Assembly (NCBI RefSeq): GCF_000003605.2
Contig: NW_003144290.1
Location: 226,286 to 262,786, forward strand
DNA: 36,501 bases
Origin: Saccoglossus kowalevskii
Lineage: Eukaryota > Hemichordata > Enteropneusta > Harrimaniidae
Direction of reading: 5' to 3'
Below are positions 1,904-33,660 of the stretch, one piece after another (within the stretch, counting starts at the first letter, position 1; each line of letters begins with the position of its first letter). Made by a program: the position numbers and the translations under genes. The notes under the pieces are model-generated. The model had not been told where the DNA came from, did no database searches, and saw only the letters and a program-made list of their open reading frames with translations.

Positions 1904-1917
1904 GTTTCCATGACAAC
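1904..1917 (+). promoter_or_regulatory. RFX X-box, GTTTCCATGACAAC
   Basis: One mismatch from the symmetrical X-box GTTNCCATGGNAAC bound by RFX factors. It lies downstream of the membrane exon in the presumed gene body. Confidence 0.6.
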
Positions 1918-2326
1918 CATCAGTTCTGATCATGCTAACTGTGTCGTACTGCGCATCCAATTACGCTCCTCGTGATTCTCTAGACAATATTAAGTATTTA
2001 TTTATAATATTTTAGTTTAAGGCATTTTTATTGCATCCCGTTATGCGACTCAGAATATTTACTGTTACCGGTAGTCAAGCCGAAGCGTGGATTTTTATCT
2101 AATGCCAAACTAAGTGAATATTCAAAAGAGTTTGGTTTTTGCGATATATTGGCGTGCTTCTACTTTATCTCCAACTACGTGATTTAATTGGCGATTGGGT
2201 ATGGAAGGTGCTTAATATCAGCGGTCATCGCGATGCATCGTGATCAATACGGGCCATATGTGGCGTATACCGCGCAAATAAAATACATTTGTTTTTAAGC
2301 GTAATTCGTATGCGGTCTGCGTGACG

Positions 2327-2338
2327 CCCCCCCCCCCC
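2327..2338 (+). repeat. Poly-C run, 12 nt
   Basis: Uninterrupted C12 between GTGACG and GAGTGGG, conspicuous in AT-rich sequence. Confidence 0.95.
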
Positions 2339-2984
2339 GAGTGGGACACTTAAAAACAGATATGGGGACGTGTCGCCCTTCGGACAGGTATTTTCAGGCA
2401 TTTGAACTAGAACAGGGGTATGGATTCATTTTTTTGCGTATATATTAGTCAAACATGTGGGTATGCTTTCTGTACTCTTTACTCTACTTTAAGTGTTGAA
2501 CTTCCACAAACATTTAGTATTTTTTTATAAACATAATTTGGATCAGGATTTGGATATTTACAGAATCTCAGAAACAAATGAACAAGCATTATCATTCCCA
2601 GTGTAAGCCCCAGAATGCAATGCGAATATGGTCCCTGTGTTATAAATATTATCAAGTAACTATTTGTTCAACAAACTATAACATCAACGTGTTTTTTACC
2701 GGGGAAAGGTGCAGTAAAGTTAGGTTCCCGGTGAGTTCAAAAGCCGGAAAGAGTCATTATTTGTGTGCAATCTTTCAGACCTTAATGGCCTTTAACGGTA
2801 GGATACGTACCTAAATGTCAGAGTATCACCCCGTGATGTGAAGCTCAGCTTACCATTTAAGTGTGTAAATCGGCTACCGTGTTCGATTACCCTTACGTGT
2901 AATAACACGATAAAACAACAACAAAAATCACGTGCAAGCATTAAAAATAGTTTTGATGTTTGCATATGTTGAACTGATAGTAAC

Positions 2985-3202
2985 TTAAAGGGCAGCACGT
3001 GTTCGAATTTCATGCAAACAAACAATGTATTATACAGGCGTTATGTACGCTCGCTATTAGTGTATAATCGAACAGGACGTCGCGCGACGACCACCAACCC
3101 AGCGGTGGCCGTCACGCAGCCCGCGGTCGAACTCGTTTGCACTCGTTGTATAAGTCATCACATAGGACCCACATATCATACACAACGCGCCGTGTCCTTT
3201 AA
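2985..3202 (+). mobile_element. Family B relative, longer element flanked by TTAA
   Basis: It begins TTAAAGGGCAGCACGTGTTCG, and its right end complement reads TTAAAGGACACGGCG, so both ends carry TTAAAGGRCA. Positions about 2992-3060 align with the family-B interior at 13069: CGTGTTCGAATTTCatGcAA, AACAATGTATTATACAGGCG and the following GTAC segment correspond with scattered, mostly transition differences. The middle also contains CGTCGCGCGACG, a perfect palindrome. It is 218 bp in total and encodes no plausible protein. Confidence 0.55.
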
Positions 3203-4533
3203 TCAGGGCATTGTATAAAAACATCATATACGCACAGCGTAACTTTTCAAGTAACTTTGTATCTAAAATATAAAATTTCAGCCCGAATAAATCCACCTTA
3301 AAATTAGCCAAATTTTCGGCATATACAAGAACGATAAGCTTAATCTGACTTTACTTAAGTATCATACTCCGGTAGAATTAGCCGCCGCCAGGGGGAAATA
3401 GGCTTTTAATGATGTTTTTTTTTTCTCGCGAGTGTTAACGCTGCCGCTGAATAAAGTGTAATGTTTTTTTGGCGGTGGTCGACGCGACTACCTGCGTTCG
3501 ATATAGGGTTAGCGAGAACAGGTAAACAGTGAACACGACGACTTGCAATAATGATCCTGTTTATATCCACCGAGGTAACAAATCAAACAAATTGATCAAT
3601 TGAAAAACCTAGGCCATCGGAGGTCTGCTGGGGGACGTCAAGAAGTAGCGCGTTAACAAATTCCTAGATCCGCCAGTGATGTTCTCCGACGCATCATCCA
3701 CTGTGAATGGTGCATGTCGGGAAGACAACCCGGAGCCTTATTTCAGCTACCTCTTATATTGCTGAATATCATGTGGTATCACCCAATCAAAGAAGAGCAC
3801 AATGAAATGAACAGCGACCATTTTCTAGTAATCATGAATACAACAGTACCTACAGGCAGAGGTTTAAATTACCTCCCGTGTAAAAACCTAATGAGGTCGT
3901 TTTGTGTTATTTCTCCAAAACGTGTACACAATTCATTCCCGTTCAAGTATATTGCTATCATATCTATAACCTAAATACACCTGAAATTCACTTACTGGAG
4001 ATTTATTTGGTAAAAAATAAACGTTCTTTTTTTTTAAATTCACCCACATCCATATAAAGGATGGATAATTAAAAAAATATATTATAACCGTTCTGTTCTG
4101 CGCTCCGTTACGTTAATTACTATGAAATTAAAAAGAATAAGCATTACATCCTGTACTTGGCATACTAACATAATGAATATTACAGAATTTTTTTTTCTTT
4201 ACATAAAAAACCTGAAGAAGACCGACTAACTGGCGGATATTTAAATTATTCAAGAAGGGAGAAGAAAATTATATATATATATTTATATTTTTTCAATAGG
4301 GTAAACGTCTATGCGAAAACCTATAGTTTCATCGTCACTTTTTTATATAATTATAGCCGTAACGGGATATATTTTTCTTAATCGCACGAAACACAGTCCG
4401 GAGGTCGAACATTTTTCTCAATATGAGTAATTATTATCATACAATTTTAATGTCAGATAAATTTAATCGTCACGTGAACAGACGCGAGGTCCGTCGAGAC
4501 AGCGCTACTCGGGAATACGACCACGTCACTTAC
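3203..4533. other. Non-coding stretch immediately downstream of the membrane exon
   Basis: Beginning of the next minus-strand intron after the GTAAGT donor at 4533. AT-rich with short T-runs and an AT repeat near 4270. The 86-residue plus-strand frame at 3714-3974 shows no recognisable feature. Confidence 0.5.
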
Positions 4534-4664
4534 CTTCGAAGTGGCTTTTTCTTTTTGATACAGTACTTGCAAAAGACGATGACGCAGATGACAAGAATAA
4601 GACCTCCCACCACCCCAGTAACGAGGATGACAATTGGAAGATACTTTGGTATCGAGGAATTTTC
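4534..4664 (-). CDS. Internal coding exon encoding a transmembrane segment, synaptotagmin-like
   Basis: Internal exon of a minus-strand gene. The acceptor is a long T-rich tract ending TTATTTTCAG at 4665, and the donor is a perfect CGAAG|GTAAGT with GT at 4533-4532. The exon is 131 bp, enters in phase 0 and leaves in phase 2. It encodes ENSSIPKYLP, a hydrophobic span of about 22 residues (PIVILVTGVV... through VIVF), then CKYCIKKKKPLR. NSS is a possible N-glycosylation site just before the span, which would put the N-terminus in the lumen or outside. Family knowledge: synaptotagmin-1/2 proteins have a short luminal N-terminus, LPxW or similar, one hydrophobic span with a GL/VL core, a palmitoylatable Cys cluster CKKC and a Lys run. 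The match in order and spacing is good but this is a low-complexity kind of similarity. Other single-pass proteins with a basic juxtamembrane stretch remain possible. The C2 domains expected of a synaptotagmin are not in the window. Exon status is more secure than the family name. Confidence 0.7.
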
Positions 4665-5534
4665 CTGAAAATAAGAAAAAAAAAATAATTGTTCCCGGAA
4701 CGATTTCAAAATGATGATATATATATATTTTATTCCATGATTAACGAAAGCAGAGAAAAACATCGAGAACGCCAAGAAAACTTGACCACAAAAAAACAAA
4801 CAAAAAAACAACAACAACCTCAACACCTGTTGGAAAGATGCCATACATTGTACAATGGCTGTCTTGAACTGACTAATGAACGTTCAAATAAGTGTCGTAG
4901 TATCTGTAATTCGACATGATAATTACGATCAAAATACCTCAAACCGAGAATGTGTTTTACATTTTTGCTTAAAAATGATTGTGACCTGCCACGCACATCA
5001 CAACCGTGATACCTATTAAAGTAATAACGTGAATTGTGTTATGTATATATACAATAGAGTAAACCACACGAATCGATTAATTATGTGATAGGCGTATGTT
5101 AAAATAAAAGATAATGTAACAATAAAACGTAGCATGGGTGACTAGTTAATAGTAAAAAGAAACCAGTCCAAGACAAAGCAAAAACTGTGTGTATATCTCG
5201 TAACGCCGCTGACAGGGATAAGGCTACATACCATGAGAAATTATTACAATAGCTCCCCGGCACAATAATTGGCATAGCACACGCTATACAATCGACATCA
5301 TGACTGACTTTCGCCAGCTTACATAGCCGGATTATGTCTAACACGGATCGTGGGTGGAATCGAGGGGGTACGTTCATACGTCCCGCCGCCTAGTGTCGTT
5401 TTTTTAGTTCCTTGCCCGGAGCTCCCTGCTGCTATATCCGATATCCCAATCAGACTATAGAGTGTCGGAGAACTGGTGTTTGATTTCTCCACGAACATAA
5501 TTCATGGAAATGCGGCTCAAAGGATGAATCGCTG

Positions 5535-5548
5535 GTTTCCATGGTAAC
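5535..5548 (+). promoter_or_regulatory. RFX X-box, GTTTCCATGGTAAC
   Basis: Exact match to GTTNCCATGGNAAC. It lies about 870 bp upstream of the membrane exon within the putative intron. Confidence 0.7.
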
Positions 5549-8296
5549 TACCGTCCATCTCCGATGACGAGTGAAAGCACATTGTTAAATCTTCCTATTT
5601 TCCCTCCTGTCACGTGTTCTCTGTGCACGAGAAACATGCCCAGTTACACTTTCCGTCATTATGAAAACATCACGACAAAACCGACGGCCAACACGTTGTT
5701 GGTCCATTCCCAACGTGTATAATCAGCAAGCGACGGCAAAGTACGCATGGTAAACTAGACACACCCAGTCCTACAACGAGGGGCATACGTGTCGAACGCT
5801 AACAATGTTCTCATTCTACCATTTTTCCGGCGTTAACATAATGTGATATTTCCAAGAAGCCTAGGTAGCCCAGGTAATTCTCATTTTCCTGTTCACACTA
5901 CAATACATCGATGACGTCAATATTGAATAATTGAATGAGTACGATGCCGATCTGCCAAGAGATCATCCATGTTCGTCTTCACTACCGCAGCAACCCTCGA
6001 CTTCCACACAATTTTCTGGGTCAACAGTTTTTAGAAAAGCATAAGAAGCAATTACGTAAAGCGTTGAATTCACATCGTCCATACAAAGGATACAACGAGT
6101 TTCATATTTAATTTCCGCGACTAAGAGTCAACAATAAATGTGTGGCTTCAGAATAGTTAAAATATCACACTACTCTACAATGACAACTCTCTTACTTTCC
6201 CTGGACGCGGAAAATATTTAAGACTGGCCCTAAACTAAACTCGTACGCTTATCTCTGTAGGGAGATGCAAGGGGCATACGTCCACGTGATATATGTATAT
6301 CCTAGAATAGAAGCACACTCACTCGTACGAGGCTGTGTTCAAGGTCGCTCGTGATCTTACGTGCGTGGCTGTGACTACAGTTTTTTTTTTATTGTTTAAT
6401 CTTATCTTGTGTGTAGTTTTAGTTTTAGAGTTGATAACATACAATATCAAGTTGCCTAATGTTTACGTAGATTTCTCGTTATTGGAAATGCGCTATCGGA
6501 TTTCTTTGTTGCGAAGTTGAATTCAACATGTTGTTTTGGGTATTATGATGATTAAGTCAAATATTGAAATTTTCGACAGAGTGGACATAATAAATAAATT
6601 AAATCGGTCAAAATGTTAAAAAAAAATGACATATAAAATCGCTATACCGTAAATAAATTCAACGAATACACCTTGAAAGTTGAGAAGTATAAGCTTGCGT
6701 GACAATCGTATGATTGCACTTCTCTAATGCATTTAGAGCTTTAATGAGAAATAAATTAGTACGCAATTACCCAGTCAACGAACCGATAATATCAGGTTGC
6801 ACTTGGAGCGTAATGTACTGAGCGAGTCTGACAATTATCCCCGACATGCACCACCTTCAGAGCCGGTGATGTGTTATAGCACCGAACAGCGCCCCCGCTC
6901 CAGTTCAAGTGTTTAGTAACATGCAAAATGTCACATCTGTATATAGTTTTATTTCGAGTAGTGTGGTAGTTTGGATAACCAAGGGGCACATTCATGAAGA
7001 ATTTATTTTTATTCTGGGGGTTCTTGGAAAACCACTCTTCGTAGGCGTTCTATGACAAAAATATATATTCGATAACTGCAATAAACTGCATTGCACCACA
7101 ACAAACAAACATTACTGTAAAATGTTGTAAAAATCATCAAACAATGTCTAATTTTTCGGAAAAAAATAACTGAGAAAATAACATGTGGGTTAGTGTCGGC
7201 TTATTTTTAATGATGGTCGTTATAATACTTGAACTAATATTTTCAACCCATTTTGGCGTTAAGTTTTGATATTGTTTTTGAAGAAATGTGTCATTAATTA
7301 AATGAAAGAAGCAAATATAAAATATGGACCGTGACGTGTTCGAACTTGTTTTCATGAAAACATTGACAATGAAATTTCCTCATAACATCATTAGGCCCTA
7401 CTTTAGTGGTAATTAAAAAAAAACTAGTTTAATTTTGTTTCCGGACTTTCGAAAAGCCAATCACATGGGCTATCTAGGCAACATACTACTAATGACGTCA
7501 CAAATAATAACGTATATCGTAATAAATTAATGATTGTTCACGTGGGCGTTTGATTCGGGCACAAACAAAATTCCAAACAAGAACCATAAGCTGGGAGATT
7601 TATATTAAAAATCCTGTCGTGGAAAACTTTCTCAAGTTTATTGAATTTCATAAAAAACAGTTAACTGGAAAGATGATTTAGGTAATGGTGTTCGAAAAGT
7701 CGACGACGTTAAAATATAATCGATAACATTCATTGAAAAGTCCCGTGACAATCATACTAATGTGAATATATTTAGTAACAAGGCGAAATTAGAGAACGTA
7801 GTGCATTTGTTTAATTTATCATTATTTTTAGGTTTGTGTTGAATGTTACTTGTATAGTAGTATAATAATGGCAAGTCTACGTAACTTATTTATTAAATAA
7901 TGATGATGAGATTAAAATGTCCCAGTAAATTAGTCACAGTGTTCAATGCGTGTTTTCTCTCTATTGTAATAGGAAATCACTATGAGATCTACAATCGAAC
8001 TTGAACTGCATTTCATTATTAATTACGATCTACAAGCAATTACTATGTTGACTGGGACGTCATGCCAACGCACCGTGAGATTGAAGGACTGATTTATTGT
8101 TCACCCCGCGCTCACAACCGTTCATGAAACATGATTTTTTGAAAGATCGCGTGTTCATCTTTGAATTTTTTTAGGCACTCGCCGACAACTTGCGTAACTT
8201 TTATTTTGGAGACACTGTGAGAAGGTTGGGTGGTAAATTCACTGGCTTAGATTCATTCACTCACGGGTTGGACTTTCGGATAACCTTAGTTAAAGT

Positions 8297-8330
8297 CCAC
8301 AGGTGCTCGTGTGTCGCCCTGGACCTGTGG
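8297..8330 (+). other. Small hairpin, 8-bp stem
   Basis: CCACAGGT (8297-8304) pairs with ACCTGTGG (8323-8330) across an 18-nt loop. It is too short for a typical microRNA precursor. Confidence 0.3.
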
Positions 8331-8722
8331 CCCCCGATTTAGCGCGTTTACGTGACAGGAAAGTTGTCGTACAGTTATGTCACGTAGTTTCAAATGTTGA
8401 ATATGATTTGTTACAAAATGCGATTGTTTTTAATTTCCTACAAGATAATTGACTGTTCGTACATTATTGACAAATATGATTTCCTGCATATTTCCAGGCG
8501 CCGACGTGGAACGTGATAAGAGCGTCTTTGGCAACTCAGTCATCCTTTTTCGGTAAGAGAGATTCCGTATCAACACGCAAGCGCTGGAAGAATGACAGTA
8601 ATTGTAATGCCCAGTACCTGCCGAGTCAGACAGACACGATTCAGAATACGCCAACGTTCAATTGAATTACTGAGTTAATTGGAAAGCGAACGTCGCTACA
8701 ATCAAACTGATGCGTCATTTTG

Positions 8723-8793
8723 ATTGGTCACATATAGGGCGTCGTCAACTCAGCTAAACCAATCAGTTACACAATTTGCCTGACATAACCAAT
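8723..8793. promoter_or_regulatory. Three CCAAT boxes at 30-36 bp spacing
   Basis: ATTGG at 8723-8727, CCAAT at 8759-8763 and CCAAT at 8789-8793, each within the extended NF-Y pattern (GATTGGTC, AACCAATCAG, AACCAATCTT). Regular multiple CCAAT boxes are typical of NF-Y-dependent promoters, but I see no associated start codon or donor. Confidence 0.35.
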
Positions 8794-10873
8794 CTTAGTG
8801 CAAATTAGATAATTAGAAATCAGATCACGTCACTATGACTTTGCTTTGCACAACGTGGGAGAAGGGGGTTGGGGCATACAGCTCAATATGGCGCATTTTT
8901 TTTTTCTACAAATATAAACCATTTGTATAGACGCTCGCCGGAATTCCCTTCGTGGACGTGCAGCTAAATACATACGTTCATAAGTAACACAGTGTTCGCT
9001 ACTGGGGGCCACCGGGGATCTACGATCGACGCGGTCGCTTGGCTATTTTTAGACACGAATGGAGAGGAATATTAACACACCTCGTCAGTCTATTAAAATT
9101 CAACGCACGCACTTGGGGGCAAGCGATGGTTTGTTTCCTACTGCTCATTCGTAATGAACTCACTATATAGCGTCACTTAGATACTAAAGGAAGGAGACGA
9201 AAGCAGGAGGGTGGTATGACAAAGAGGATAATCACCGCGGAGTTTGATAATGGCCATTCTGTTCAAGATGGGCGCGTTATCTGCTATAAAACAGAAATGT
9301 GTCAAACAATACAGTAGGGGTTAAAGGTTATATTATATAGCAGTCACGAAAATGACGTCGTTGAGCTATAAATACTTTTCTCTAAAATGGGATAACGCAC
9401 CTTTCATAAATTCCAATTCTGCCACTAAATTTACGAAATAAAAAGAACGGAAAAAAGAAATAAAAGAGTGTACTTATTCGAAAGGTGATAACGAGGTGTT
9501 GAGATAATTAAATTCTAGGATACGCTTTGAACCGTATTTCTTAATTACATATAATATTCAGTAATATACGAGCCCGCCTTCAGGGGGAGGGGCGTTTAAA
9601 AATGAGATGTTGGGTTCATGTTATCGTTTTCTACGCGGGGATACGTGTTATAACGGAGACACATTCCGCTGTCAGTGTGACACATGATTCAACCGCAGAA
9701 TAATAAAAATAAAAAAAAATGTCATTCATCGTGATTTGAAATATTAAAATTGTGACTATTTGAAGAAACACATACATAAATGCGACAAAGTGCTGACAAT
9801 GAGGCCGACGTGAGTGAGGCGCCGCCGTATGGACCCGTGACGTCATAGTCGGAGACGCAGCTAGAATGATAACTATCTACGCATCGCTGTATGTGCTTTA
9901 TCATTAGACGGGCCCTTTAAGGTTCTTTGGAATGCGAGTGCAAATAGTCAGACTATTTGAGAACTTAACACTTAACGCACCAGTATCAGAATTTGTCTAA
10001 GTGGATTGTCTTTCTAGATTTGAAACTATCTTGATGACTGTACATTCCCGTATAAATAACCTTTTGACTTTTTCACGACATCAAGCGATAAATCTTGTCC
10101 GTGTTAAGAGGACTAGAGGGGTTACATTTACACAATTATTCAGACAAAAACATGCAATGATCGACAAGTTCAACATAATTTAATTTACATTCCTGAATGT
10201 TAATATTCAGTCGCTATGAATGATCGAACATGGGCGAAATTACGTTAAATACATCAAGGATCTTGAACGCAGCGTGTACCACTGGAGTGACTTTGGATCG
10301 GCGTTAATTCTTCTAAAAACCGAGTAAGAATAGGCGACATGAACTTGAACTTGAACGACGTATCATGGTATTAGCGACGACAATTTTTATAAGTTCGGTT
10401 GCAACGTGATAGGGCCCCATAGATATACGCAGTATATCGCGACTGTGTATGCGATTTCCCTTACAACACACTGTGACGAAAGCGAAGCGCTGTTACGTCA
10501 GTCAGATCGAAGAAGAAGAAAAGGGAAGGAAAAAAAACACTTACCGGGTTAAAAAGCCACAAAGCGGTATATTGTTAACGTTCGGGACCTGGAACACCTC
10601 GTAGCAACAACTTAAAGTGACGACTGCGTAAAGCGAACTGGCTACAATGCTCACTGCTGGATGAAACGCGCAGAGGCTGGTTTTATGTCGTCATCGCTAA
10701 TGTTTATTGACAAGGGGAGAATAAAAGTTGCGTGACCTGCCTGGCTTATTGCAAGCCGAGTTGTCAGAATTTCAAATATCCCCGCCGAATCATGCTTTTT
10801 TTTCACTCTCTCTGGATTTCATGGCAATGTGTCACATGATATAAACACTGGAATGTATTAAGCGATATTTAGC

Positions 10874-10884
10874 GGGGGGGGGGG
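10874..10884 (+). repeat. Poly-G run, 11 nt
   Basis: Uninterrupted G11 between TTTAGC and TGCC. Confidence 0.95.
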
Positions 10885-11177
10885 TGCCTATAATCGGTCG
10901 AATGAAAATATTGATTAAATGTTCGTTCTTAAAATTATTAAAATTAAATTACATCATCCAATTTGGTACATGTCTCGGTCACGATTTTGACGCATCACTG
11001 TTTTGAAATACAAAAATCAAAAAAGGGATGTTTACCCTGGGGACCGCTGTTATATGTATAATTTTGACATCTGACATCATTAACTCTAATAGTAGTATTT
11101 GCTTTTGTTGGTCTGTGTATCTTCAACATGGAATATCATTTTTAAACTAGCATTGTCTAGGAAATATTTTGTTTTCC

Positions 11178-11309
11178 TTAAAGCGGGAGTCGTCACATGC
11201 GCATGCGGCACTCTGCCATAGCGCGTTGTTGTTTACAAACACGCGTCTACCCATGATATTTTGCGTTTTTAGCGTGCGTTGTTATCATCGCTTGGGACCC
11301 CCCCCCCCC
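11178..11309 (+). mobile_element. Family A MITE-like element, copy 1, 3' end replaced by poly-C
   Basis: It begins TTAAAGCGGGAGTCGTCAC, followed by a CATGCGCATGCG end motif, GCCATAGCGCG, TTGTTTACAAACACGCG, a CATGATATTTTGCG segment and CGCTTGGGAC. These are shared in order with the copies at 12885 and 16429. The 3' inverted repeat expected after CGCTTGGGAC is missing and is replaced by a run of 12 C (11298-11309), so this copy is truncated or the assembly collapsed here. Confidence 0.8.
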
Positions 11310-12771
11310 GTTTTGAAACGTCAGTTGCATTATTGCCGTCACGGTTAACAAATTAAATATTTTTAAAGTCGGTTTCTATTACAACTTTTAACTTTTCTAA
11401 TTAATTGGTCGTAGTCTCAATGACAATGGATGTTGCGAGGTTCGTAAATTGATGTTGGTAACTTGATACAACACATGTAGTTCGTTAAATATAACACTGA
11501 TCCTCGCTGTGCAACTACGCATATAAAGGATGTACCATTTTCAAATGGGGGGGCCTTAAAACGTGAATGTTTGGCTAATTATTTTGTCTTTCCTTAAACG
11601 GACATATATAGGTAGGCTCTGAATTATCTTTACGGACATTATTACTCATTTTCTTTTTTTGTTGTGTTTCTACTCACGTCTTACCACCCCAGTAGAAATA
11701 ATGACTCACCCCTGAAGTGTTTTTCACTGGGACTGATAGACAGTCTATTTTCAATGACACCAGCGTGAAGGTAGTGCAGACAGAGATGACGATGTTGCCA
11801 TTCGTGGTGAGATTGTACGCCTATTCTCCAACTTCAATAACAAATTCAATTTATTTCCAGTATATAATATTAAATATAACTTTATTGAGAACGTATGTTG
11901 ACTACTTAAATGACAAGTAACCCTAATAACGAAAGACGACCTCTCGCTATTCCGAGAAGAAGACTAACTTTTTTTTTGGTAACGGTAAGATGATTATCGG
12001 TTCACTCGAATGTTGTTGTTCTTTTCATGAAATTTTGCTATTTCACTTGAAAAGCAGTGTTATTTACACATGTACCATGTGAGTCAAGTTACCCGTCACT
12101 GATATAAGACAGAGTGATCCGTCGAGCTCCTCCCGCCAGTGAATTTTGGAAAAGTTCAAGTTCAAATTCACCCAGCCAATATTTCAATGCGTCAGTACGC
12201 CATCACCAAACCACCTCGTTTTCGCTAATGAATCAACTCGCCAATCTCTATTGGTCTGGTAATGTATGTACAGGTAATACAGCAGGACAGAGGGGATAAT
12301 GTGAGACATCTCGTCCTGTTGTTATCTACGTGTTCTCCAATTCCCACCCTACATCGACACTGACCACGCAGAAGCCAGACACACGCCGGCTTTACGACTT
12401 CACTGGTTAAAATAACTCACTGATTACAGCGGGGAATTGTGATATGTATCATTGTGGCTTATCTTTTACTACTGCATAAAATCACTACATATGACGCTAA
12501 CGCCAAATGGCCACTCGCGCTGTCAATCAGCTAGCCGGTGTATATTCAATAATTCACTTTAAATACAAGTATTTCAAATCTTACGACAACTTTAGATTAC
12601 ATTCGTGTCCATGTAAGCATATGCCTTGATACAAATCATAATTGTGGTGTGAAACCTATATAAGATTAATGTGACTGTGCATATGTATATTGCGGTATTT
12701 TCGTGGTGCATGTCAGGCACGCGATCGATTACCTGCTTGTTATCAACTGTCGTTATGCATTTTCAATGCAC

Positions 12772-12833
12772 AAGTGATGTCATCATTCTTTGCCTTTAGT
12801 GTAAGTGATGTCACCATTCTTTGTGTTTCAAAA
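12772..12833 (+). repeat. 31-bp imperfect tandem duplication
   Basis: AAGTGATGTCATCATTCTTTG at 12772 recurs as AAGTGATGTCACCATTCTTTG at 12803 with one substitution in 21 bases. The period is 31 bp, and the second unit decays after about 12825. It lies just upstream of family-A copy 2. Confidence 0.75.
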
Positions 12834-12884
12834 CAGTTGATGCTGTCATCATCTTGTCGCGATGAATTCTGAAGTTGTTGTGAT

Positions 12885-13015
12885 TTAAAGCGGGGAGTCA
12901 TCACCTGCGCATGCGTCAGATGGCCATAGCGTGTCATTGTTTACAAACAAGCGTTGTTACCGTCGCTTGGGACTCAATTCCCGCGCGTGTGCAGGTGACG
13001 ACCCTCCCACTTTAA
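12885..13015 (+). mobile_element. Family A MITE-like element, copy 2, internally deleted
   Basis: TTAA occurs at both ends (12885-12888 and 13012-13015). The terminal inverted repeats are about 28 bp: the left end reads AAAGCGGGGAGTCATCACC and the complement of the right end reads AAAGTGGGAGGGTCGTCACC, both continuing into a CG-rich TGCGCATGCG-like stretch. The core TTGTTTACAAACAA is kept. About 30 bp of the internal segment present in the copy at 16429 is absent. Short open frames across this element repeat in other copies and are not genes. Confidence 0.85.
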
Positions 13016-13068
13016 ATTATATCACACCCACACACATGAACTATAAACAAAGCATAGCAGAGTTCTCC

Positions 13069-13184
13069 TTAAAGCGCTACAGTCGTCGCGCAGCGTGTGT
13101 TCGAATTTCGCGTAAACGAACAGTGTGTTTTACACGCGTTGTATACTTCGAAAACAACGCGGTGCGACCACTGTAGCGATTTTA
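13069..13184 (+). mobile_element. Family B short inverted-repeat element
   Basis: It starts TTAAAGCGCTACAGTCGTCGC, and the complement of its right end reads TAAAATCGCTACAGTGGTCGC, giving a terminal inverted repeat CGCTACAGTSGTCGC of 15 bp. The interior contains GTGTTCGAATTTCGCGTAAA and TTTTACACGCGTTG. It is about 116 bp and lies only 53 bp after family-A copy 2. The shared TTAAAGCG start and GTCGTC motif suggest the two families are related or were mobilised by the same transposase. Confidence 0.7.
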
Positions 13185-13354
13185 GAAATAAAAAAGACCT
13201 ACCACAGCTTGTCCGTTTCCATTGGCCATAGGTTGCGTAGTAATGTTATAATCCTGGAAAAAAACACACATAAAGACATGTATGTCAGTATCGAAACAAT
13301 CGGCATATGCTTATTTAGAAAAATTCAAAGTCTGCTGTTATCTAGACTCCCATT

Positions 13355-22287: not shown

Positions 22288-22314
22288 TTAAGGACGGTAG
22301 TCGTCGCGCCTCGC
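22288..22314 (+). mobile_element. Family B-like terminus running into the assembly gap
   Basis: TTAAGGACGGTAGTCGTCGC followed by GCCTCGC resembles the left end of the element at 13069, and the sequence becomes N directly afterwards. The most economical reading is an element whose body could not be assembled. Only 27 bases are visible. Confidence 0.35.
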
Positions 22315-22510
22315 NNNNNNNNNNNNNNNNNNNNNNNNNNNNNNNNNNNNNNNNNNNNNNNNNNNNNNNNNNNNNNNNNNNNNNNNNNNNNNNNNNNNNN
22401 NNNNNNNNNNNNNNNNNNNNNNNNNNNNNNNNNNNNNNNNNNNNNNNNNNNNNNNNNNNNNNNNNNNNNNNNNNNNNNNNNNNNNNNNNNNNNNNNNNNN
22501 NNNNNNNNNN
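22315..22510. other. Assembly gap (196 N)
   Basis: Unresolved bases. The two open frames that appear to cross it are artefacts of reading N as codons. The gap begins at a family B-like terminus and its length is near that of the 218 bp relative at 2985, so a repeat in the gap is plausible. Confidence 0.99.
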
Positions 22511-23044
22511 TATCAGTAAAGTCGTTCACATCCTCGATATTATTTTGCTCTGCCAATTAATTCAAACTACACTGTATTTGAGATCCTATATTTGCGACAC
22601 AACAACTAAACATACATCGCCTACACCCATCCACGTCTTTTGACGTCACAAAAATGTTTCAACACTAGAGGGCGCAACTGTTGATCCCAATTTCTCCCAT
22701 TTAAATGTATCGCATCGCATTGCAATTATCATATTAAAAGAAAAGTGATTATCAACCAGAAAGGTGTCTAAAATGGAAGAAAAATGAGGCTATTTTGAGA
22801 AAATTTGTGATCAGAACTATAACTCATTAGACTGCGCATGTCAGCAGCGAGTGTTGGAACTCATAATGACCACCCCTTAGGCTGATCACGTTCACTTTCG
22901 AAATTTATCATTTTTAGTCACGTTTCAATTTCCTGAGTGTGTCTGTTAATTATGGCAAGAAAGGTGAGAACTGATGGAGACAATTATAAATATAATACGG
23001 AGTTAGATGAATTAACTTGCGATGCACGCGACGACTATATCGAT

Positions 23045-23055
23045 GGGGGGGGGGG
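23045..23055 (+). repeat. Poly-G run, 11 nt
   Basis: Uninterrupted G11 inside a short open frame that begins MARKVRTDG. The homopolymer makes that frame an unlikely gene. Confidence 0.95.
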
Positions 23056-23636
23056 TATCTGTTCATACGCAGAACTTCCACGTTCTCGTCCGCCATCCGT
23101 AGAATTTGTTGCTACATATCTAGCATACTCCTGCCATAATACACCGAAAATGCCTATAACTATGATTTGGACACTCATATTAAGTAAATGGCCAATTAAC
23201 GCTGGAATCGTCTTCTTTTACAAGTAGATTCGGATTGGCTCTCTGTAATGGGAAGGAGCTACACAATACTAGCACTACAATGTAGACGCATTTATCATGG
23301 CTTTCTTGCGGTAACTATCTGGTGCCGCAATCAAGTGTAGGGTTTTACGACGATGAACGCCACAATTTAAATTTATTTTCCAATCGCAGGGTCACGTGAA
23401 AGCCTGAATGTAATCGCTTCTATTTTGAGAAAAACAAACAAAAACAAAACAACAAATAATTAATTGAAAGCGATGGCCTATTCTATTGTATTTGAGACTG
23501 GAAATTTAAGCAAAGAACAACGTGTTTTCAGAATGACAGCTTGAGTTGTGTCCACTTCGCTAATATATCCAATACAAGCAGGATATTTGAATAGAACTTT
23601 CATCGTGAAGGCATATTGTACTATTTGTTTTAGACG

Positions 23637-23708
23637 AAAATGGCTGCCGACGGAGATCTCGTTAAAAGCGAGATATCAACCGTGACCGGATTTCTGTCTG
23701 ACATTTAA
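23637..23708 (+). promoter_or_regulatory. YY1-like site with embedded ATG and 22-codon open frame
   Basis: AAAATGGCTGCC places an ATG at 23640 that reads MAADGDLVKSEIS and stops at 23708. The composition looks protein-like and the context (A at -3, G at +4) is favourable. A TTTCCCGCC (E2F-like) lies about 20 bp after the stop. No splice donor that would extend the frame is convincing. It may be a promoter with a micro-ORF or chance. Confidence 0.25.
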
Positions 23709-25303
23709 CTATTGTTCCACTCTTTCCCGCCATCACGCCCACTGTTCCAAATACAATAGTTACAACGTGTTTAAATGTCATAATTGTTGACAAAGTTTGT
23801 CATAAATCGCATGACAATGTTCACTGATTTAGTATGTACAATCAATAAGCTAATGTCCCATGGTACAATGAAATATCATTATTTTGTGTGTTAGGCAGTT
23901 AAGCTTTATGAGAAACGTGTCCTTATATTTCTTGAAAATTTGCTATTTTTAGAACAATTCCATAGAACACAGTGTTAAAGAAAAAATGTATTTGTTGAAA
24001 CTTTTTAAAACTCAGATTTTTTAAATAATTCAAAACAACAAAACGTACTCCGTCCTTAACAATATATGTTTTTTTTCAGCCTATGTCACCAGGCTAGATT
24101 TTGAGATATTGCATTATATCCATGCCAAAGGAACCTATGGTAAAAGTGTTATAATAGTGTCAAAATTCTCGAAAACAAAGGCTGGTGGACCCCCGATTTT
24201 TTAGGTCAATATCCTTGTATTGCCTTGTATGGCAAAATGACTAAATTCTCAGACTGGTATTTTTAAATTAATTCCTGTGTGAATGCCATTCGTTTTACAT
24301 TTGCAAATATTATAAATAACGTAGATGGAATTAACACATGGCGTAAATACACACAACGATGGATAAATACCGTCAAACTGTTTAAAAAAATAAGTGACAG
24401 AAAAATACCAAATACGCGTGGGCGAGGGAGTACGGAATCAAATTCCCTTGCAATGGATAGCATGTCAGCACACTTACATACGACCGCGTCTTTCAAATTG
24501 AAATCAGAATCATTACTCGTTAAGCCTAATTTGAATCGAGCAAGCAATCTAATCAGACGCTATTGCTCGACTTTTTTTTCAAGGGCTAATCTGTCTAATA
24601 GATTTGGTGGGATTACCGACGGACAAATGCCGATCCACCCTCAATCACACGCCGCTACGTGGGTGTCAATTATTCCTCCGAGGAACGAAAAAAAAAAAAA
24701 AACGCTGTGAAAAGTGTTCGTAGACTGGGAAACTGTGCCACCAAAATAGGAATGCTACTGTAATACGTGGAATGAGCAACATAATGTTGAATTATGGATT
24801 GTAGAACACGACATTGCTATTATCCCAGCCGTTGGTTAACGCTATTACCGACTTCACCTTATCGCCAGTCTATTTCCGGCGACACAGTTCGTTTACTGCG
24901 TACTGATGAATCTCAATCTAAACTCCCTACATCATTAACTGTTTGTATTTCCTATTATAATAAGACTATTCAAATTCAACCGACGAGAATTACTCTAAAC
25001 GACACAGGAAGAATGATTGTTTGAAGATCTCAATGAACATACTATTGACGCCAGCCATTCGATTTGAAAATATGATGTCGCTGTAATCGTCGTCATGAAA
25101 TGTGGAGACCCATGTGCGTCTGTAACAAACCGTTATGGTACCAGTATTCGGTCATGATACGTCAATACTAATATATTATATTGACAAAATCTCATTATGA
25201 TATTATCATGTTTATATCGATACAATAAATATAAAGGCACTCTCTCTTAACTCAACACACAATGACACCCTCCACTTATTAACATGTCATTTTTATTATA
25301 ATC

Positions 25304-25317
25304 GTTTCCATGGCAAC
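25304..25317 (+). promoter_or_regulatory. RFX X-box, GTTTCCATGGCAAC
   Basis: Exact match to GTTNCCATGGNAAC. It lies about 230 bp before family-A copy 4. Confidence 0.7.
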
Positions 25318-25545
25318 CATAAACCGAATAACGTCAAGAAGATGCCAAAAAAGCATAGCTTGGTCTGACCACCGCGCTACGGGGTTGTTAATAGGATAAC
25401 CGAGAGCTTAGTAGACGAGGCGTTTATACAGACGATTAGGCATAGACTGAATCGCACTATGGCAGTGATAAAAATGAAAACGCAGATTAAGAGTTCTTCA
25501 ATGACGTAATGTTTGGACGTTATAAGCTCTGTGTTTTTCTTAGCT

Positions 25546-25701
25546 TCAAAGCGTGAGTGTCGTCACCTGCGCACGCGCGGGAATTGAGTCCAACGCGACA
25601 CACGCTAACACCGCAAAGGCTCATGGGTAGACGCTTGTTTGTAAACAAAGACACGCTATGGGCATCTGACGCATGCGCAGGTGACGACTCCACCGCTTTA
25701 A
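25546..25701 (-). mobile_element. Family A MITE-like element, copy 4, inverted orientation
   Basis: The copy runs opposite to the other three: the GGGAATTGAGTCC segment comes first on plus and the TTTGTAAACAAA core later, followed by CATGCGCAGGTGACGAC and CCGCTTTAAA. The right flank is TTAA (25698-25701). The left flank is TCAA (25546-25549), one substitution from TTAA. It is 156 bp, close to copy 3, and lies upstream of the putative gene rather than in its intron. Confidence 0.85.
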
Positions 25702-26134
25702 ACACAATGCCTTGCTCGATGAAACGCACGTACACACACGCCTAATCAACTGATACGTTCAACAACTCATAATATAGTTAACAACTAAACCCTCCAACGC
25801 TGGACCCGTGTTGTAATCAAGTTGTATTGAATGATTTCCGCTGAAGGGAAACAAACAAATCGATATATCCATTTAGAAGAAAATACAGTAAAAAAGCATA
25901 ACACTATAATATTTTTCTAATCAACTCGCGACGTTCCGACGTATATATTTTGTACAACCATTTCCTAGCCTGCGGTCGAACACTTGCAGCGAACCACAGT
26001 CTCAATTGCGTTCATCAATGCAAGTGTGACATTTGCTTGTTTTTGATAATTTTTAAAAATGAGTTTTCAATTGTTATTTTCATGGCTGCAAATAGGACCT
26101 TCTTGTCAGTATGTCCCTCAACTCTAAAAATGTT

Positions 26135-26148
26135 GTTATCATGGTGAC
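26135..26148 (+). promoter_or_regulatory. RFX X-box, GTTATCATGGTGAC
   Basis: Matches the degenerate RFX pattern with GTTATC and GGTGAC half-sites around AT. Confidence 0.5.
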
Positions 26149-29100
26149 ACGCATGGTTTCAAGTGGGTGTCTCCATCGTGTCAAACGTGTTGCGAGTTAC
26201 TTCCATAACAAGTTGTAACTTTTAGCTGACTAATTTGGGTTGATCTTTTATGTTAAATTGTAACTCAGTATACCATTTTGTAGTGAAGCTATAATGTCAC
26301 TATATTAGATATCTACATTATTCCATGGTTATTTGCGCCACACCCACCTAATATATGACTACCTCCCATCAGCTCTGGATCCATATCTAGGCCGGTGAGG
26401 TTATGACATGCACACAGCAATCGAACCTGAAAGGGACCTATAATTCGATACATATAACAAGACTGGGTGAAATATTACTTATTGAATGTCAGTGGCGTCA
26501 ACAAGAAAATGTTTTATTTCTGGAATCACACCGAGATCGAATACAACGCATAGCCAGAAGAACTGACTAGAATAGCAAGAAACGGGATAGCAAAACAGAT
26601 TTTCCATATCGGCTTGCGGAAGAGCTGCACTTGCTTGTAGGAATCAATTATTGGGATGTAAATATTACTTTTTATAAACCGATTTTATGTTCTAATCTCA
26701 CAAACCGATCAATGTTATATAAAAGAGTTCTAGAAGCACTGCTCTCCAGTGTTGCAGAATATATTTCGAATGATACCTAGCTTTGTGGCTTAAGTTTGTT
26801 TAAATATTCATTGACTCACAGTCACAAGAGTATCACACTTGAGCTAGCAATATAGACGCAAGCAGCAATGATCGGCTTGTGTCATTAGTCTATCAAACCC
26901 CCGTTACTATGAATATGTCTGTGGTTGCTACGGATATACCCACCAACTGACGTAGTATGAACTGTATTGGTCTGGAACGTATAGAAATGTTTGCTATTCG
27001 TTGCTAGGTGTCAAACATGTGTTTTGTACTTAGTCTAGTATAGTGGCAATTAATGTCATGTTCATCAAAGGCGCTGTTTTGGTTTTGGCTGATATGGGCG
27101 TTGTCTCACTCATGTTATGAATGTTTGTTTTGTCAATCTGATAGCGTACTTGAATGCATACTAATGAGATCACGTGGCCACCACGTATCTACAAGAAGAT
27201 AGCAACAAATGACTCACATAGGCTATTTATATGCCATTCTATTCTCTTGATTATATCGGGTAAAAAGCACCTTTAAGCATGGTTGCCAAGGGTGTGGGCA
27301 TGGTTGCTAGCATATGATGTCGTGCAAAAGAAAATGTCTCAAAAGATGTATTTTAGATCAAAATGTATGGTGCTTTAAAAAGGGTCTTCTAAGTTCATAT
27401 TTTTTAAAACGAAAAACTGGTTTTCTCTAACTTAGATCTTTTTCTTCTAAATTTTGCTTCACGCGTTCTCTATTATAGGTTAGAAACCTGGTGGGCAATA
27501 AACACACTGTGAAAATGCAAACTCTATGAAAATACAACCCTATATATACAATAGACCTGGTGGTCGAACAAGTTCTGCTGTCCAATAAAAGCATATGAGT
27601 AATAAAACAAAGCAGAAAATTAACGAAAATATGACAGAAGTGCAACCTATTTATCAAGTATTAAAGTAATCAGGCTAATATAAAATGTCATTTTTACGAA
27701 AAATTATAAGAATATTTGCCAAAATTATAGAATTACTGAAATGATACTTCCGTGATTGTTTTAAGAACAGAAATTCAGTTCAGCATTGCTTAATTAGAGA
27801 TTCCTGTGCGAAACAAAAATTCGGAATGTCGATCACTTCGGTGACGAAAAATTGGCGATAACAACTAAGGGTGCGAGAAACTGCATTCCATGGTCATATT
27901 TACACATGTTGTATATACAGCAAGTTGAAAATACACACTGTCCTACTTTTCAGTGACATAATTGTGTAGATAAACGAGGTAGATGGTCTCACATTGACAT
28001 ATCAGTGTATATTGTAGCTACTACGCGATAATGTACCATCACCCCAACCCCGTCAAAACACACGATTTTTCTCCAACATAAAATGAAACATGATGTGCTT
28101 TTAAAATAATTTCTACGTGCACAGCAATCCACCAATACGGTCACGTGACTATACTTTCCCGGATTACGTTCGCTTACATGATTTCACGGACATTTCATTG
28201 CCATTGGTCACTAATAATATAAATCTCATTCCCACATGTCTCTGAATTTTATTGAATAATATTGTTGAATTATTAACCGTCCACGAGTGAGAATAATAAT
28301 AATCAAGACAAAAGTAACATTCTTGTGAGCGGCACTGTGGTACGCATCGTGGTTACGATATCATCATCGAAGTCTAATTATGTTTCCAGATGCACCAAAC
28401 TTTTAACAATATTATCAATATATTCGAGTTCGGATGTAAGTGTTTTTATTTAACCGATCTGCACGACTATTCTAAGCATCTACCGTAATCTGCACAACAT
28501 CAAACATTATTGACTGTATTCACCGACAACTTACAACGAATGGCCGCTGGGGTCTCGGTGAGTGCGAGAGTGCCGCGAAAATTGTTTTGCCCCGCTCAAA
28601 TTATGCCCACTGTTTCAAGTAACATTGTCACATAGGTCAGGAAAACGGCGAACGCAGTGACCGGAGAGAATGGTACATGGAATGGAACTTATAATTTTAG
28701 AGCTGATAATGGACAGTTATCAGCTGTTTTGTAAGCATTAATTTTCAATGGAACACATTTTCAATAAATACGATAATATACTTTTAGATAAAGAGCATTC
28801 ATTTCTTGATATGAAGACTAGAATACATTGTAATATGGCGTCCTTTCAGATAATTTATCAAATAATAAGTCACGGGAAGCGACGAAGTTTCTCAGACGTG
28901 AACATTCCTATTATTTTGTTCTGAGGTCGTCCACCAATAATATAATGTTATTTGTAGCCAAATAGAGCGGACTTGTAGAACGACATTTTGTACAACCGTC
29001 TACGTCACATTTTGAGACGTCACAGGCACGTTTCGCCACGAGAGGGCTCCGTCGACTTTTAGTTGGCTTCCTTAGATGCTGTATTATGACAGTTACATTT

Positions 29101-30538
29101 TCAACATACTGACTGCGTTAAGTGACACAGGGTTTTTGATAAAACGAAGACTGACTGTCCAGGAGTTAAACCTCAGTGATTATGCTGTGCATCACAGTTA
29201 GTTTCGCCGGAGTTTAAAGCACTACCGGTCAGCTTAATCCAAATTACGTACTTAATTTGTAGTTTATTCACATGAAAAACTTTTCCGTGCTGACACCCAT
29301 TTTCTGATCAATATTCAGGTGATCTACGCAACTGATGGCATTATCAGGTTTCGACATACATCTTATCCTGCTATCATATAAATGTGAGACAGAATTATCA
29401 ATATATTGATTAGAACCGAACAAGATGTCCCGCGTGGGCGTATATATTAATATTACTACAAACAGCACTTAATTTTAAAAAAAATCATTTATCGATATCG
29501 GCTTGTGAGAACATCGATGTTATTAGGATCGCCTTACGTTTGTTAAATCGATTTTTTTTAAATAATGGTTGCTCATGTAGTAAACGCTGTTTAGACGCCG
29601 AGTTCACGGGTGTCTAGATAATGTAAGGTACGACTGAAAAAGTAGAATTGGGTATCATTTGTGCGATATACCGTCATTGAACGCAGCGTCCGGGTACGAG
29701 GCTACATCCGGCGTATGAGAATGTTAACCAACTGCCGGTTTTCAGAAAAAAATAAGGTTCTGACAAATTGAACAAGTCTTTAATTTTTTTATGGCGATAA
29801 GTAGAATCCAGGTAAGATTAGATTATTTCGATTTTTGTAAATATGTTTAGTCCAATAACATGTCAACAGTCGCTGGTGTTTGTCATACGAATAGCAAGGT
29901 TGTATTTGGTGGCGGCCATCTTTGATTTTACCCAAAACAGTACAAATAATTCATTGCTAATAACCTGAAAAAAACGTGCAAAGCGGAATAAGTCCTTATA
30001 AACTGTCACACAGATTTGTGCATGGCTCGAGTTTAACATCAACTTACTACCATTTACGTCTTTCAGTGCACAGTAGAACACACATGGAAAAGGCAGGCTT
30101 TTTGGTGTTTTGATTAAACATGTAAGACGTGTACAGCAAGTAAATTCAATTGTGTATATAAATGACATTAAATAACTGCAAATCAATCGTCAAAGTCGAA
30201 ATAAGACAGCCATGCAGTTACGTGGTCTGGGCTGTCTAACCGACCACCGTGGCAAATTACGGATACAACACTGAACGTACAAAAAAACACACACTCAAAA
30301 AATCTAAATAGTTTTACCTGTTTTTTGGGTAACAATTTATTCCATTACGAAAAGGAACACAAAAAGTTAAGAAGCAAATGAAAGTTTACTGAGAATGTAC
30401 GTGCTTCTTCTTTAAAATACATAAAAATAAAATGCAGGGGGATTAGATTCGAGTTATATAGGGGTTGCCTCGCGTTGATTTCTTGCAGGTAATCCACATC
30501 GTATTCTTCTCTAAACGGGAGTGATTTTTATCACACAA
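26149..30538. other. Distal region without recognised genes
   Basis: AT-rich sequence. Notable only for a doubled GCATGGTTGC near 27278 and 27299, a short plus-strand ATG-to-donor candidate at 28540-28557, and the YY1-like site at 29911. Confidence 0.45.
29911..29922 (-). promoter_or_regulatory. YY1/TISU-like site AAGATGGCCGCC
   Basis: On the minus strand the motif embeds an ATG (29919-29917) that opens an 18-residue frame starting MAATKYNLAI and ending at 29863. This combination is characteristic of short-leader gene starts, but I see no strong donor within the frame, so the site could be regulatory only. Confidence 0.35.
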
Positions 30539-30550
30539 TACGCATGCGTA
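30539..30550. other. 12-bp perfect palindrome TACGCATGCGTA
   Basis: Self-complementary over 12 bases with an NRF1-like centre. It lies 180 bp before the X-box at 30730. Confidence 0.5.
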
Positions 30551-30729
30551 ATATATACCGTCTTTTTCGAAATATGGAGCATGAGCCGTACCACGACTTC
30601 ACATCGGTGCCCGCCCGTTATGTTTTCTTAAAATATATAATTTAGTTGTCAATTTGTCCGAATAGTAGTCGTGATTGCTGTATTATATAATAAATGAGAT
30701 GGGTGTTGAACCCTGTTTGACTTGGAACT

Positions 30730-30743
30730 GTAGCCATGGCAAC
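30730..30743 (+). promoter_or_regulatory. RFX X-box, GTAGCCATGGCAAC
   Basis: The same 14-mer as at 20990, but in different flanking sequence, so it is not part of an obvious copied repeat. Confidence 0.65.
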
Positions 30744-31294
30744 CTATATTGGAAGCTGATCCGCCGCTTCGTGAGATACGGACCAGTGTGCAATAAAGAC
30801 GACATCGTACATGTCTAATTATATGTTATTTCCGCTTCCCAATCATTTGTCGAATCTATGCTATCACGATCTACGATAAGTATAAGCACCCAGTGGACAC
30901 AAGATTTTTTTATTGTTATTGAAATTGATAGGTACTGTAGTCAAGCTGATGCGGATTTTAGAAAATATCATCTCGAAGATCTGGCGATAAACATGTTAAG
31001 GCATCAGAAGCGACAATGTATGTTGTCCAATTTTCATAGCGGCCATTATTGAAGATTGAAGAAACAACACAAACAACTCACTCGGTACATTATTTGATTC
31101 ATCTGCGCGCCTAGCTTATTTAAAAAAAAAATTCTTTCTTTTTGAGCAGGGATCAATTTTCTTACAAATGACACTGATATATATTAAATATAAAATTTGT
31201 TCATGATCTATTATAATGTTCGTCTTATATAATACTGTAAAAATCGTACCAGTAGAGTGGCTCGTGATACATGTAGAGGCGTTTCTTTTGTTTA

Positions 31295-31319
31295 ATATAT
31301 ATATATATATATATATATA
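31295..31319 (+). repeat. (AT)12 microsatellite
   Basis: An uninterrupted AT dinucleotide run of 25 bases, the longest in the window. A shorter run is near 4270-4281. Confidence 0.95.
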
Positions 31320-33646
31320 CGCCGCAAGAAAACAACGATCACTGCCTAAAGTTGCTTACGATATTTGAAATTCTGAGACCTATAACATTAATGAGGGCAG
31401 TCGATCGATGGCAGGAAATTGTAAATCAACAGTTCCCATTTATATGATATGTAATATTGATTCTGTGTTACTATACAATGAACATTCTATAAATGCTTAA
31501 AAAATCATAGACAAACCGATATTGTAGAAAAAAAGAAAGAAAGACACGAGATTTGGAATTTGCAAGAAATGTGACTTATCTCGTTTCATCGCCAGATCAC
31601 CCTTCCCTAAACAAAACCTATATATAACCTTATATCATCGTAGGTATTGGATTACTTTGTTCTAAAAATGAATGTATTTCACTTTAGATACAAGAAGAAA
31701 CATATATAGAATCCATTTGAGATATCCCTGCAAGCAAAATGTGTTAAATATTATCCACTGTTTGTTCATAAACAAGAAAATGTAACCCTTGTTTTGGTTG
31801 TGTACTGATAACCCTAAATGCATTAAACGCGTAGTGTGGCGCAATTATCATCTGGTCTATATATCTTACTGATCTGACCATGCTATGTAGTGGAGTATCA
31901 ACTCCCCTAACATCAGAGTCATTATCGCTCCATTCCACTATATTTTGACTGGTTCATAAATACAAATAGTGTCTAATCATTGATACTACCCTTTTAAAAT
32001 TCTATATTGACTGTCTGCGTTCTGTGTTGTCACCCAAACCCCACCCCTTTTCTAAAATAACGGTGCCAGTTTATCACTCCATTATAGAGCCAAACAATAT
32101 TTACTTTAGCATATATGTTTTTAATGGAATGAATTGACAATATATCAACTTCAATGAAGAGGATGAGGCAATACGGACAAACGTTGAGTGACGTCAGTAT
32201 GCTCTCGATATATTTGTGCCGAACGAGATAACATATTCATTAGCGTCGCATCCTCCAATATATGCACATCGACTATTAGTAAGTGCTCAGACCCGTAATG
32301 CTCCATACGGTGACGCTGTTCTTGTCATGTTTAATTTAGAGCGTTTGTGTGCATTGCAGTTGGGTACCGCTTAACCCCTGGGAAATTATGTCAATAATTG
32401 TTAAACGAAATGAATATACGAACTCCACATATTTGATTTGTACTAGTGTGACATCATACATCATCATTAATTGACAACAGTAAAACAAATTAACTAGAAC
32501 TAGAAAGAGGACATATTTTTGACACTTGTTTTTCGAATTGCTGACTGTTTTTGTAATTATTATGGTGCCTGAGACATGAAGAATGTATAGCCCGAAACCG
32601 AACATCTATTAACAGTATATTAAAAGCAATACAAATATGTTTAATCCGACCATTTAGCGGATTTTATGACCATAACAAACATGTATCCCGTGGATTTCCC
32701 GTCGAAGTCATACGGCGACAAATGAAAAATATTCAAAATGGGAAGGTGTATGCTTGACACACACCAACAATATTCAAAGGTTACAAAAACATTTGATGTT
32801 CCAAGGTCTCAACGAAATCAACACAAACTTCCGTAACATATTCCCTCAGGTGGGAACACGTGTGAACACAAAGAGAGGAAACCGGGTTGGGGTCTGGGGT
32901 GAGGGGTTGGAAAGAACGGAGGTGTACGCAATAAATTCAGTCTGGCGAGTACCCACGTTGAGCAGTCGTTAAAACAAATCGAAAGTGACGAATCTTGCAA
33001 CCATTCCCACTCACCACAAATGTAAATGACGTAATAAGAGTTAAATTTGCGCAATATTTTACTATTTTTATTCCATCTCATTTAGCCAACCAGAAAAATG
33101 AGTTGATATTGTTCTTTTCTCAAAACAAAATGATGAACTTCTGAATATCATTATGAAATTGCGGGAAACATTCAGAGACGAATGAAAGTATGCTCCACAT
33201 GACACCATATAAATCACCTGACAGATGTCTGTCACACGAGTTCATCTAAAGATAGGGAGTAAAGAATCTGTGTGAATCAGAGCTCGTAGCTTTAATCTAC
33301 ACTACGTGACGTCACAACTGAATTTAAGGACGTATACATTATTGGGCAATTAGTAGCCTTCTGGTGTTCCCATGCACGTGCTCAGTACATTCTGTTAGGT
33401 GTGTTTGTCTTCTGATTGCTAGGTCTTTTATTGTGACATTGCGGCAATCGAGTATTTTTCACACTCGTCTCATACGCAATAATATATTATTAGGCCCGGG
33501 TAAACTGCCCAGTATCTGGGTCATCAAAGCGTCACCGGTGCCAAACCAGTTGCAGTGCCGTGGGCGATGAACGTGAAATTGGATAATTTTTTGACAGGAA
33601 TTATTGCGACAAAACTACTCTCCTCAGGAATATTTACGTTGAAGCA

Positions 33647-33660
33647 GTTGCCATAGCGAC
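33647..33660 (+). promoter_or_regulatory. RFX X-box, GTTGCCATAGCGAC
   Basis: GTTGCC and AGCGAC half-sites around AT, within the usual RFX degeneracy (RRNRAC). Confidence 0.55.

Follow-up and report, generated by a model that had tools for sequence, protein, structure and literature searches.

How can a regulatory site as long and specific as the RFX X-box recur every few kilobases in DNA that holds almost no exons? This question is raised by a stretch of 36,501 nucleotides from the hemichordate Saccoglossus kowalevskii (contig NW_003144290.1, positions 226,286 to 262,786), hereafter called the window, in whose nearly exon-free 36.5 kb near-perfect copies of the motif at such intervals would be hard to obtain without selection or directed spread. 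Our analysis finds sites of a familiar type in unusual numbers, with an excess that is real, specific to one spacer length and genome-wide, and that is probably stronger in the window. From motif geometry and counts, we hold it moderately probable that these 14-mers are genuine binding sites of RFX dimers, part of a genome-wide excess and unusually dense in the window, whose noncoding DNA probably consists of introns.

X-boxes of the window and their spacer

Measured against the 14-mer reference GTTNCCATGGNAAC, the window contains 2, 7, 11 and 23 sites when up to 0, 1, 2 and 3 mismatches are allowed (Table 1 lists the eleven best). The preliminary description of this DNA had reported nine, and all nine are present, two exact, five with one mismatch and two with two, including a pair at 20990 and 30730 that do share one 14-mer, GTAGCCATGGCAAC; the list was real but incomplete, having left out the sites at 617 and 7348. 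Its expectation that such a site should be rare by chance also holds, as the seven sites within one mismatch compare with 0.05-0.09 in simulated sequence. At up to 0, 1, 2 and 3 mismatches, 200 second-order simulations gave means of 0.00, 0.05, 1.10 and 12.1 sites (maxima 0, 1, 5 and 21), and 100 third-order simulations gave means of 0.00, 0.09, 1.43 and 14.2; the excess at three mismatches is marginal (23 versus 15.6, with 4 of 100 shuffles equally high).

Ranking the X-box among palindromes leads to the same result. With its 7 sites within one mismatch it stands joint third when all 4,096 palindromes built in this way are considered, pure-AT patterns lying above and beside it, and first among the 3,648 that have at least four G/C. 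The two patterns next in rank have 6 sites each and include TGCGCA, a sequence found repeatedly in a repeat family; the fourth pattern reaches 2. Across 600 simulated windows, none of the 3,648 patterns scored above 5, whereas the X-box scores 8 by the same count, which treats a symmetrical change in both halves as one. The simulations and this ranking together rule out chance as the origin of the X-boxes in the window.

The excess lies in the arrangement of the half-sites, which are inverted at a fixed short distance as an RFX X-box requires. Pairs of half-sites within one mismatch number 7 at spacer 2, as against 0, 0, 0, 1, 0, 1, 1 and 0 at spacers 0, 1 and 3 to 8 (0.6-0.8 expected at each), and single half-sites occur at expectation (54 versus 52). 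The loose Drosophila consensus RYYNYY N1-3 RRNRAC, as given in PMC2375033, follows the same rule: counted as RYYNYY-N-RRNRAC, it occurs 31 times at spacer 2 versus 16.3 expected (standard deviation 3.9; maximum 30 in 200 simulations), and 17, 8, 15, 10, 19 and 10 times at spacers 0, 1 and 3 to 6, where 16-17 are expected each. Along the window, the X-boxes are evenly spread (Kolmogorov-Smirnov, KS, p 0.89).

Genome-wide excess, palindromes and flanking sequence

The window lies on a contig of 297,770 bases. In the whole genome (572.1 Mb), exact X-boxes number 1,435, versus 38 for the reversed pattern that serves as a letter-matched control, and this 38-fold difference makes the excess genome-wide. 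At that rate a stretch of the window's size should contain 0.09 exact sites, or 0.15 on the assumption that 41% of the genome is unread, the share in our sample; the window has 2 (P 0.004-0.011). The sample was made up of 20 stretches of 10 kb from fixed positions on 3 contigs, with 117,739 readable bases in all. Allowing up to 0, 1 and 2 mismatches, 0, 2 and 11 sites were counted in it, compared with 2, 7 and 11 in the window's 36 kb; the window is therefore 11-fold denser by length within one mismatch (p 0.0009) and denser also within two (p 0.006). An equal density elsewhere, the outcome that the preliminary description had set against its own proposal, was not found in the sample, which is small and is compared with a window picked after the fact. 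Both alternatives of that proposal gain support, a distributed RFX regulatory landscape from the local density relative to the sample, and a lineage-wide amplification of the motif from the 38-fold excess.

Base preferences at the genomic sites also favour RFX sites. At position 4, taking both halves of 46 exact genomic sites, G was found 34 times, T 33, A 18 and C 7 (of 92); G is raised and C low, matching the RFX preference, and T is common, as it is in the window. Immediately outside the motif, T occupies 52 of the 92 flanking positions at these sites (L011-L014, L035-L074), a possible extension of the site, and exact X-boxes stand in close pairs at L052 (312 bases apart) and L057 (144), with the same 14-mer twice in each.

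The genome-wide count also allows that the window has no special role for RFX, being the upper tail of a general property or a member of a class of CpG-rich regulatory DNA. This is possible but, we think, on the unlikely side. The 1,435 exact copies against 38 reversed, the even spread of the X-boxes with no co-clustering with cAMP response elements (CREs, described below), and the choice of the window after the fact are all compatible with it, as are two high-CpG stretches of the sample, L027 and L029, which hold 4 and 3 CREs respectively and 2 X-boxes each within two mismatches; the 11-fold difference within one mismatch speaks against it.

A mutational or structural bias toward palindromes without protein binding would also yield symmetrical sites, and perfect short inverted repeats are indeed raised at spacer 0 with 5-bp arms (28 versus 15.6) and at spacer 3 (26 versus 17.1), as are G/C-rich 8-bp palindromes (69 versus 52.8). 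However, the reversed X-box is equally palindromic and has the same letters, and its genome-wide rarity, the near-expected counts of most other arm and spacer classes, and the excess of a non-palindromic motif, AGTTCAAG, leave this account highly improbable. As the whole cause of the X-boxes, palindrome bias is rejected by the reversed-pattern count together with the inverted-repeat classes.

Spread inside mobile elements would leave shared sequence around the sites. The flanks (250 bp to either side, E<=0.05, low-complexity filter) of the window X-boxes have in common only an identical 16-mer at 20990 and 30730 and one weak 26-base match (26021 versus 31791) that lies away from the X-box site, and flanks of 400 bp match fetched genomic loci only through an element resembling a miniature inverted-repeat transposable element (MITE) hundreds of bases away. 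Apart from that 16-mer, the window sites thus share no sequence beyond the motif, as dispersed repeats would, and we reject copies of one repeat as their source, in agreement with the preliminary description. In the rest of the genome, 44 loci holding the 46 exact X-boxes were compared, and 10 of these loci share flanking sequence (E<=1e-5). For nine of the 10, the shared part comes to within about 40 bp of the X-box in each partner, so a minority of sites outside the window may be borne by repeats. These loci, along with a MITE-like family in the window that carries other palindromes, are what favours transposon-borne amplification; the 34 loci without a shared flank, the unrelated flanks in the window and the lack of X-boxes in its MITE-like copies make it improbable.

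The MITE-like element carries CGCATGCG, GCCATAGCG and TGTTTACAAACA, and its four copies account for 4 of the 6 CGCATGCG sites and all 4 TGTTTACAAACA sites in the window. The copy at 11189 continues into a poly-C stretch, and relatives occur in the genome sample at L017, L019 and L027. An origin of the X-boxes in this family was rejected, as its four window copies contain neither X-box nor CRE.

Other motifs and gene candidates

Two further motifs are in excess that the preliminary description had missed. The CRE palindrome TGACGTCA occurs 12 times versus 1.6-1.7 expected (third order), with an excess at spacer 0 only, and it is 4.3-fold denser than in the genome sample (12 versus 9, p 0.001), a difference of which the sample's lower CpG ratio and G+C content may account for part. 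ATF/CREB proteins prefer a purine before and a pyrimidine after the CRE, and the flanking base of TGACGTCA is a purine in 20 of 24 cases. In the major histocompatibility complex (MHC) class II X1/X2 module, an RFX site adjoins a CRE-like site. The window likewise has RFX-type and CRE-type sites in one region, but the distance from an X-box to its nearest CRE ranges from 117 to 5,295 bases, and the X-boxes are no closer to CREs than random points are (P 0.69); with no co-clustering at these distances, a compact X-box/CRE module is rejected.

The second motif, AGTTCAAG, occurs 9 times versus about 1.0 expected, unevenly along the window (KS p 0.013), and compares with 5 in the genome sample (p 0.001). 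For the 8-mer, p 2e-6 is borderline after correction, and the 9-mer ACTTGAACT passes (7 versus 0.33, p 6.5e-8). Some of these sites stand in tandem like nuclear-receptor half-sites, with GTTCA repeats at spacer 1 found 3 times versus 0.12. The weaker excess of TCACGTGA (6 versus 0.8-1.3 expected) is not significant when corrected over 256 palindromes. The densest spot of the window, at 15961, is a candidate promoter or enhancer, although its clustering does not reach significance (P 0.07, for a width that was set after the spot had been seen). The motif CAAGCCGA / TCGGCTTG has six copies in the window, where about 0.6 are expected, and two in the 118 kb genome sample. In a 75-motif panel of consensus strings, with 1,804 window bases masked or unknown, GATA, SOX, POU, forkhead, T-box and homeodomain sites showed no significant excess, and strict GTTRCCATGGYAAC had 0 matches.

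Table 1. Features of the window (positions count from its first base; mismatches are counted against the X-box reference)
Feature	Position	Strand	Remarks
X-box-like GTTACCATGTGAAA	617..630	+	2 mismatches; absent from preliminary list
X-box GTTTCCATGACAAC	1904..1917	+	1 mismatch
X-box GTTTCCATGGTAAC	5535..5548	+	exact
X-box-like perfect palindrome GTTTTCATGAAAAC	7348..7361	+	2 mismatches; absent from preliminary list
X-box GTTGCCTTGGAAAC	16147..16160	+	1 mismatch
X-box GTTACCATAGAAAC	20097..20110	+	1 mismatch
X-box GTAGCCATGGCAAC	20990..21003	+	1 mismatch; exact fit to published GTNRCC N0-3 RGYAAC
X-box GTTTCCATGGCAAC	25304..25317	+	exact
X-box GTTATCATGGTGAC	26135..26148	+	2 mismatches
X-box GTAGCCATGGCAAC	30730..30743	+	1 mismatch; 14-mer identical to 20990, flanks differ
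X-box GTTGCCATAGCGAC	33647..33660	+	2 mismatches
12 exact CRE palindromes TGACGTCA	starts 5912, 7493, 9838, 16030, 16320, 16964, 17558, 18726, 22641, 32189, 33307, 35769 (span 5912..35776)
9 AGTTCAAG sites	4863..18168	both	all in first half of window
6 TCACGTGA palindromes	starts 4470, 15961, 23392, 28141, 34138, 36292 (span 4470..36299)		weaker excess
Densest spot	15961..16327		E-box, CRE, X-box, CRE within 367 bp
MITE-like element, 4 diverged copies, about 120-190 bp	11189-11310, 12889-13035, 16438-16590, 25541-25715	-	terminal inverted repeats GTCGTCACCTGCGCA / TGCGCAGGTGACGAC
Best exon candidate	4534..4664	-	polypyrimidine 15/16, donor 7/7; would encode one transmembrane helix and a basic tail

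The window as a whole has a G+C content of 38% and a CpG ratio of 1.21, and no tRNA (tRNA search) or Rfam family (gathering thresholds) was found in it. A Pfam scan of 141 of its 434 frames (stop-free, at least 38 amino acids, those of low complexity filtered out; 3 of the 434 contain unknown bases) returned weak single matches (best DUF2705 at 8e-5); neither these frames nor four beside the window gave a convincing Pfam domain, and five frames scanned against Pfam at a looser threshold gave nothing above the cut-off. The 41 residues of the best exon candidate, compared with PDB by phmmer, returned weak matches, mostly to membrane proteins (best erbB-4, E 0.024). About 6.8-8.6 kb past the window's left end, a stop-free frame of 569 residues (L075:1446-3152, minus strand) has no match in Pfam (E<=0.1) or PDB (E<=0.01). 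Its sequence is charged, has little structure and repeats RQESISEED-like motifs; it reads like a disordered cytoplasmic tail. We infer that exon candidate and frame may belong to one gene, with much of the window as its introns; the noncoding DNA of the window probably represents introns of a gene on the minus strand, whose product would be a single-pass membrane protein. Two local repeats were also noted, a tandem repeat at 13354-13491 (2.2 copies of a 64-bp unit with two GGCCAT motifs per unit) and a 57-bp direct repeat (2992-3048 and 13090-13146, 79% identical, 10 kb apart) that has relatives at L032 and L067.

Probable RFX binding and possible distal regulation

RFX binding is the likeliest cause of the pattern because the motif and its spacer have been retained and the surroundings have not, and because the letter-matched reversed pattern is rare. 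Like known RFX-family X-boxes, the window sites are inverted repeats of the RFX half-site, here with a 2-bp AT centre; they differ in being dense and distant from any recognised promoter, whereas RFX motifs in animals are described as enriched near transcription starts (PMC10530576). Human conserved noncoding elements are reported to be rich in X boxes (Xie et al., 2007, cited by PMC2797782), and there, as in the window, they lie in noncoding DNA and are not limited to promoters. PMC5245798 describes Rfx2/Foxj1 enhancer-promoter loops in Xenopus multiciliated cells, with Rfx2 dimerisation proposed to bridge distal sites and promoters; the window resembles this system in its RFX motifs at distal sites, but the forkhead motif TGTTTAC occurs less often than expected there (4 versus 10.4, masked sequence). 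The preliminary description pointed out that RFX factors control ciliary and neuronal genes; a link of the window sites to genes of these kinds is a hypothesis. Six of the X-box 14-mers, searched as literature text, hit two papers, both of which concern cilia by title and abstract. Among the matches listed in our literature searches, none reports a dispersed amplification of X-boxes, and the term 'RFX' is absent from the main text of PMC13317027, PMC12460157 and PMC9977687.

Several observations count against genuine RFX sites at a locally raised density. The strict RFX consensus GTNRCC N0-3 RGYAAC (from PMC10530576) fits 2 of the 11 window sites, 8 of the 11 fit RYYNYY-N2-RRNRAC, and the site at 617 fits neither. 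Position 4 shows no significant preference for purines in the window (9 of 14, p 0.21), and the rise of other G/C-rich 8-bp palindromes noted above, though mild, belongs here as well. In Drosophila, loose X-boxes were equally frequent at negative-control genes, and conservation between species was used to separate the functional ones, according to PMC2375033. The small genome sample is also lower in CpG ratio (0.80 versus 1.21) and in G+C (0.353 versus 0.383), and its X-boxes within one mismatch exceed simulation (2 versus 0.4) yet show no excess of half-site pairs at spacer 2 (2 versus 1.5). Around genomic X-boxes, CREs show no increase (3 in 61,071 bases), and the two excesses thus seem independent. 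The readable 3.2 and 3.3 kb flanking the window have no X-box within two mismatches, and the window was chosen for its richness, a few dense ones being expected among some 9,000-16,000 such windows. Since the window was picked post hoc and the sample is small and different in composition, the locally higher density is likely rather than proven.

If the X-boxes are bound by RFX dimers, selection through that binding would keep them, and they could serve the local gene or its neighbours as numerous separate elements of distal regulation. They might contact promoters when RFX proteins dimerise, the mode put forward for Rfx2 in Xenopus, and the CREs alongside them would be bound independently by dimers of the ATF/CREB type. 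A broader and more tentative reading of the motif pattern, which we regard as rather unlikely, is that this lineage has multiplied and kept perfect RFX dimer sites throughout its noncoding genome, partly seeded by repeats and with hot spots like the window in long introns, as a general code for enhancer-promoter contact and not as ciliary switches; the density of X-boxes within one mismatch in the genome sample, far below one per 5 kb, lowers the odds of such a genome-wide code.

With its exact copies in excess, its minority of loci with shared flanks and its dense spots, the genome of S. kowalevskii would let one ask how a regulatory word multiplies. One could also ask of such a genome if, beyond cilia, RFX dimers play an architectural part.

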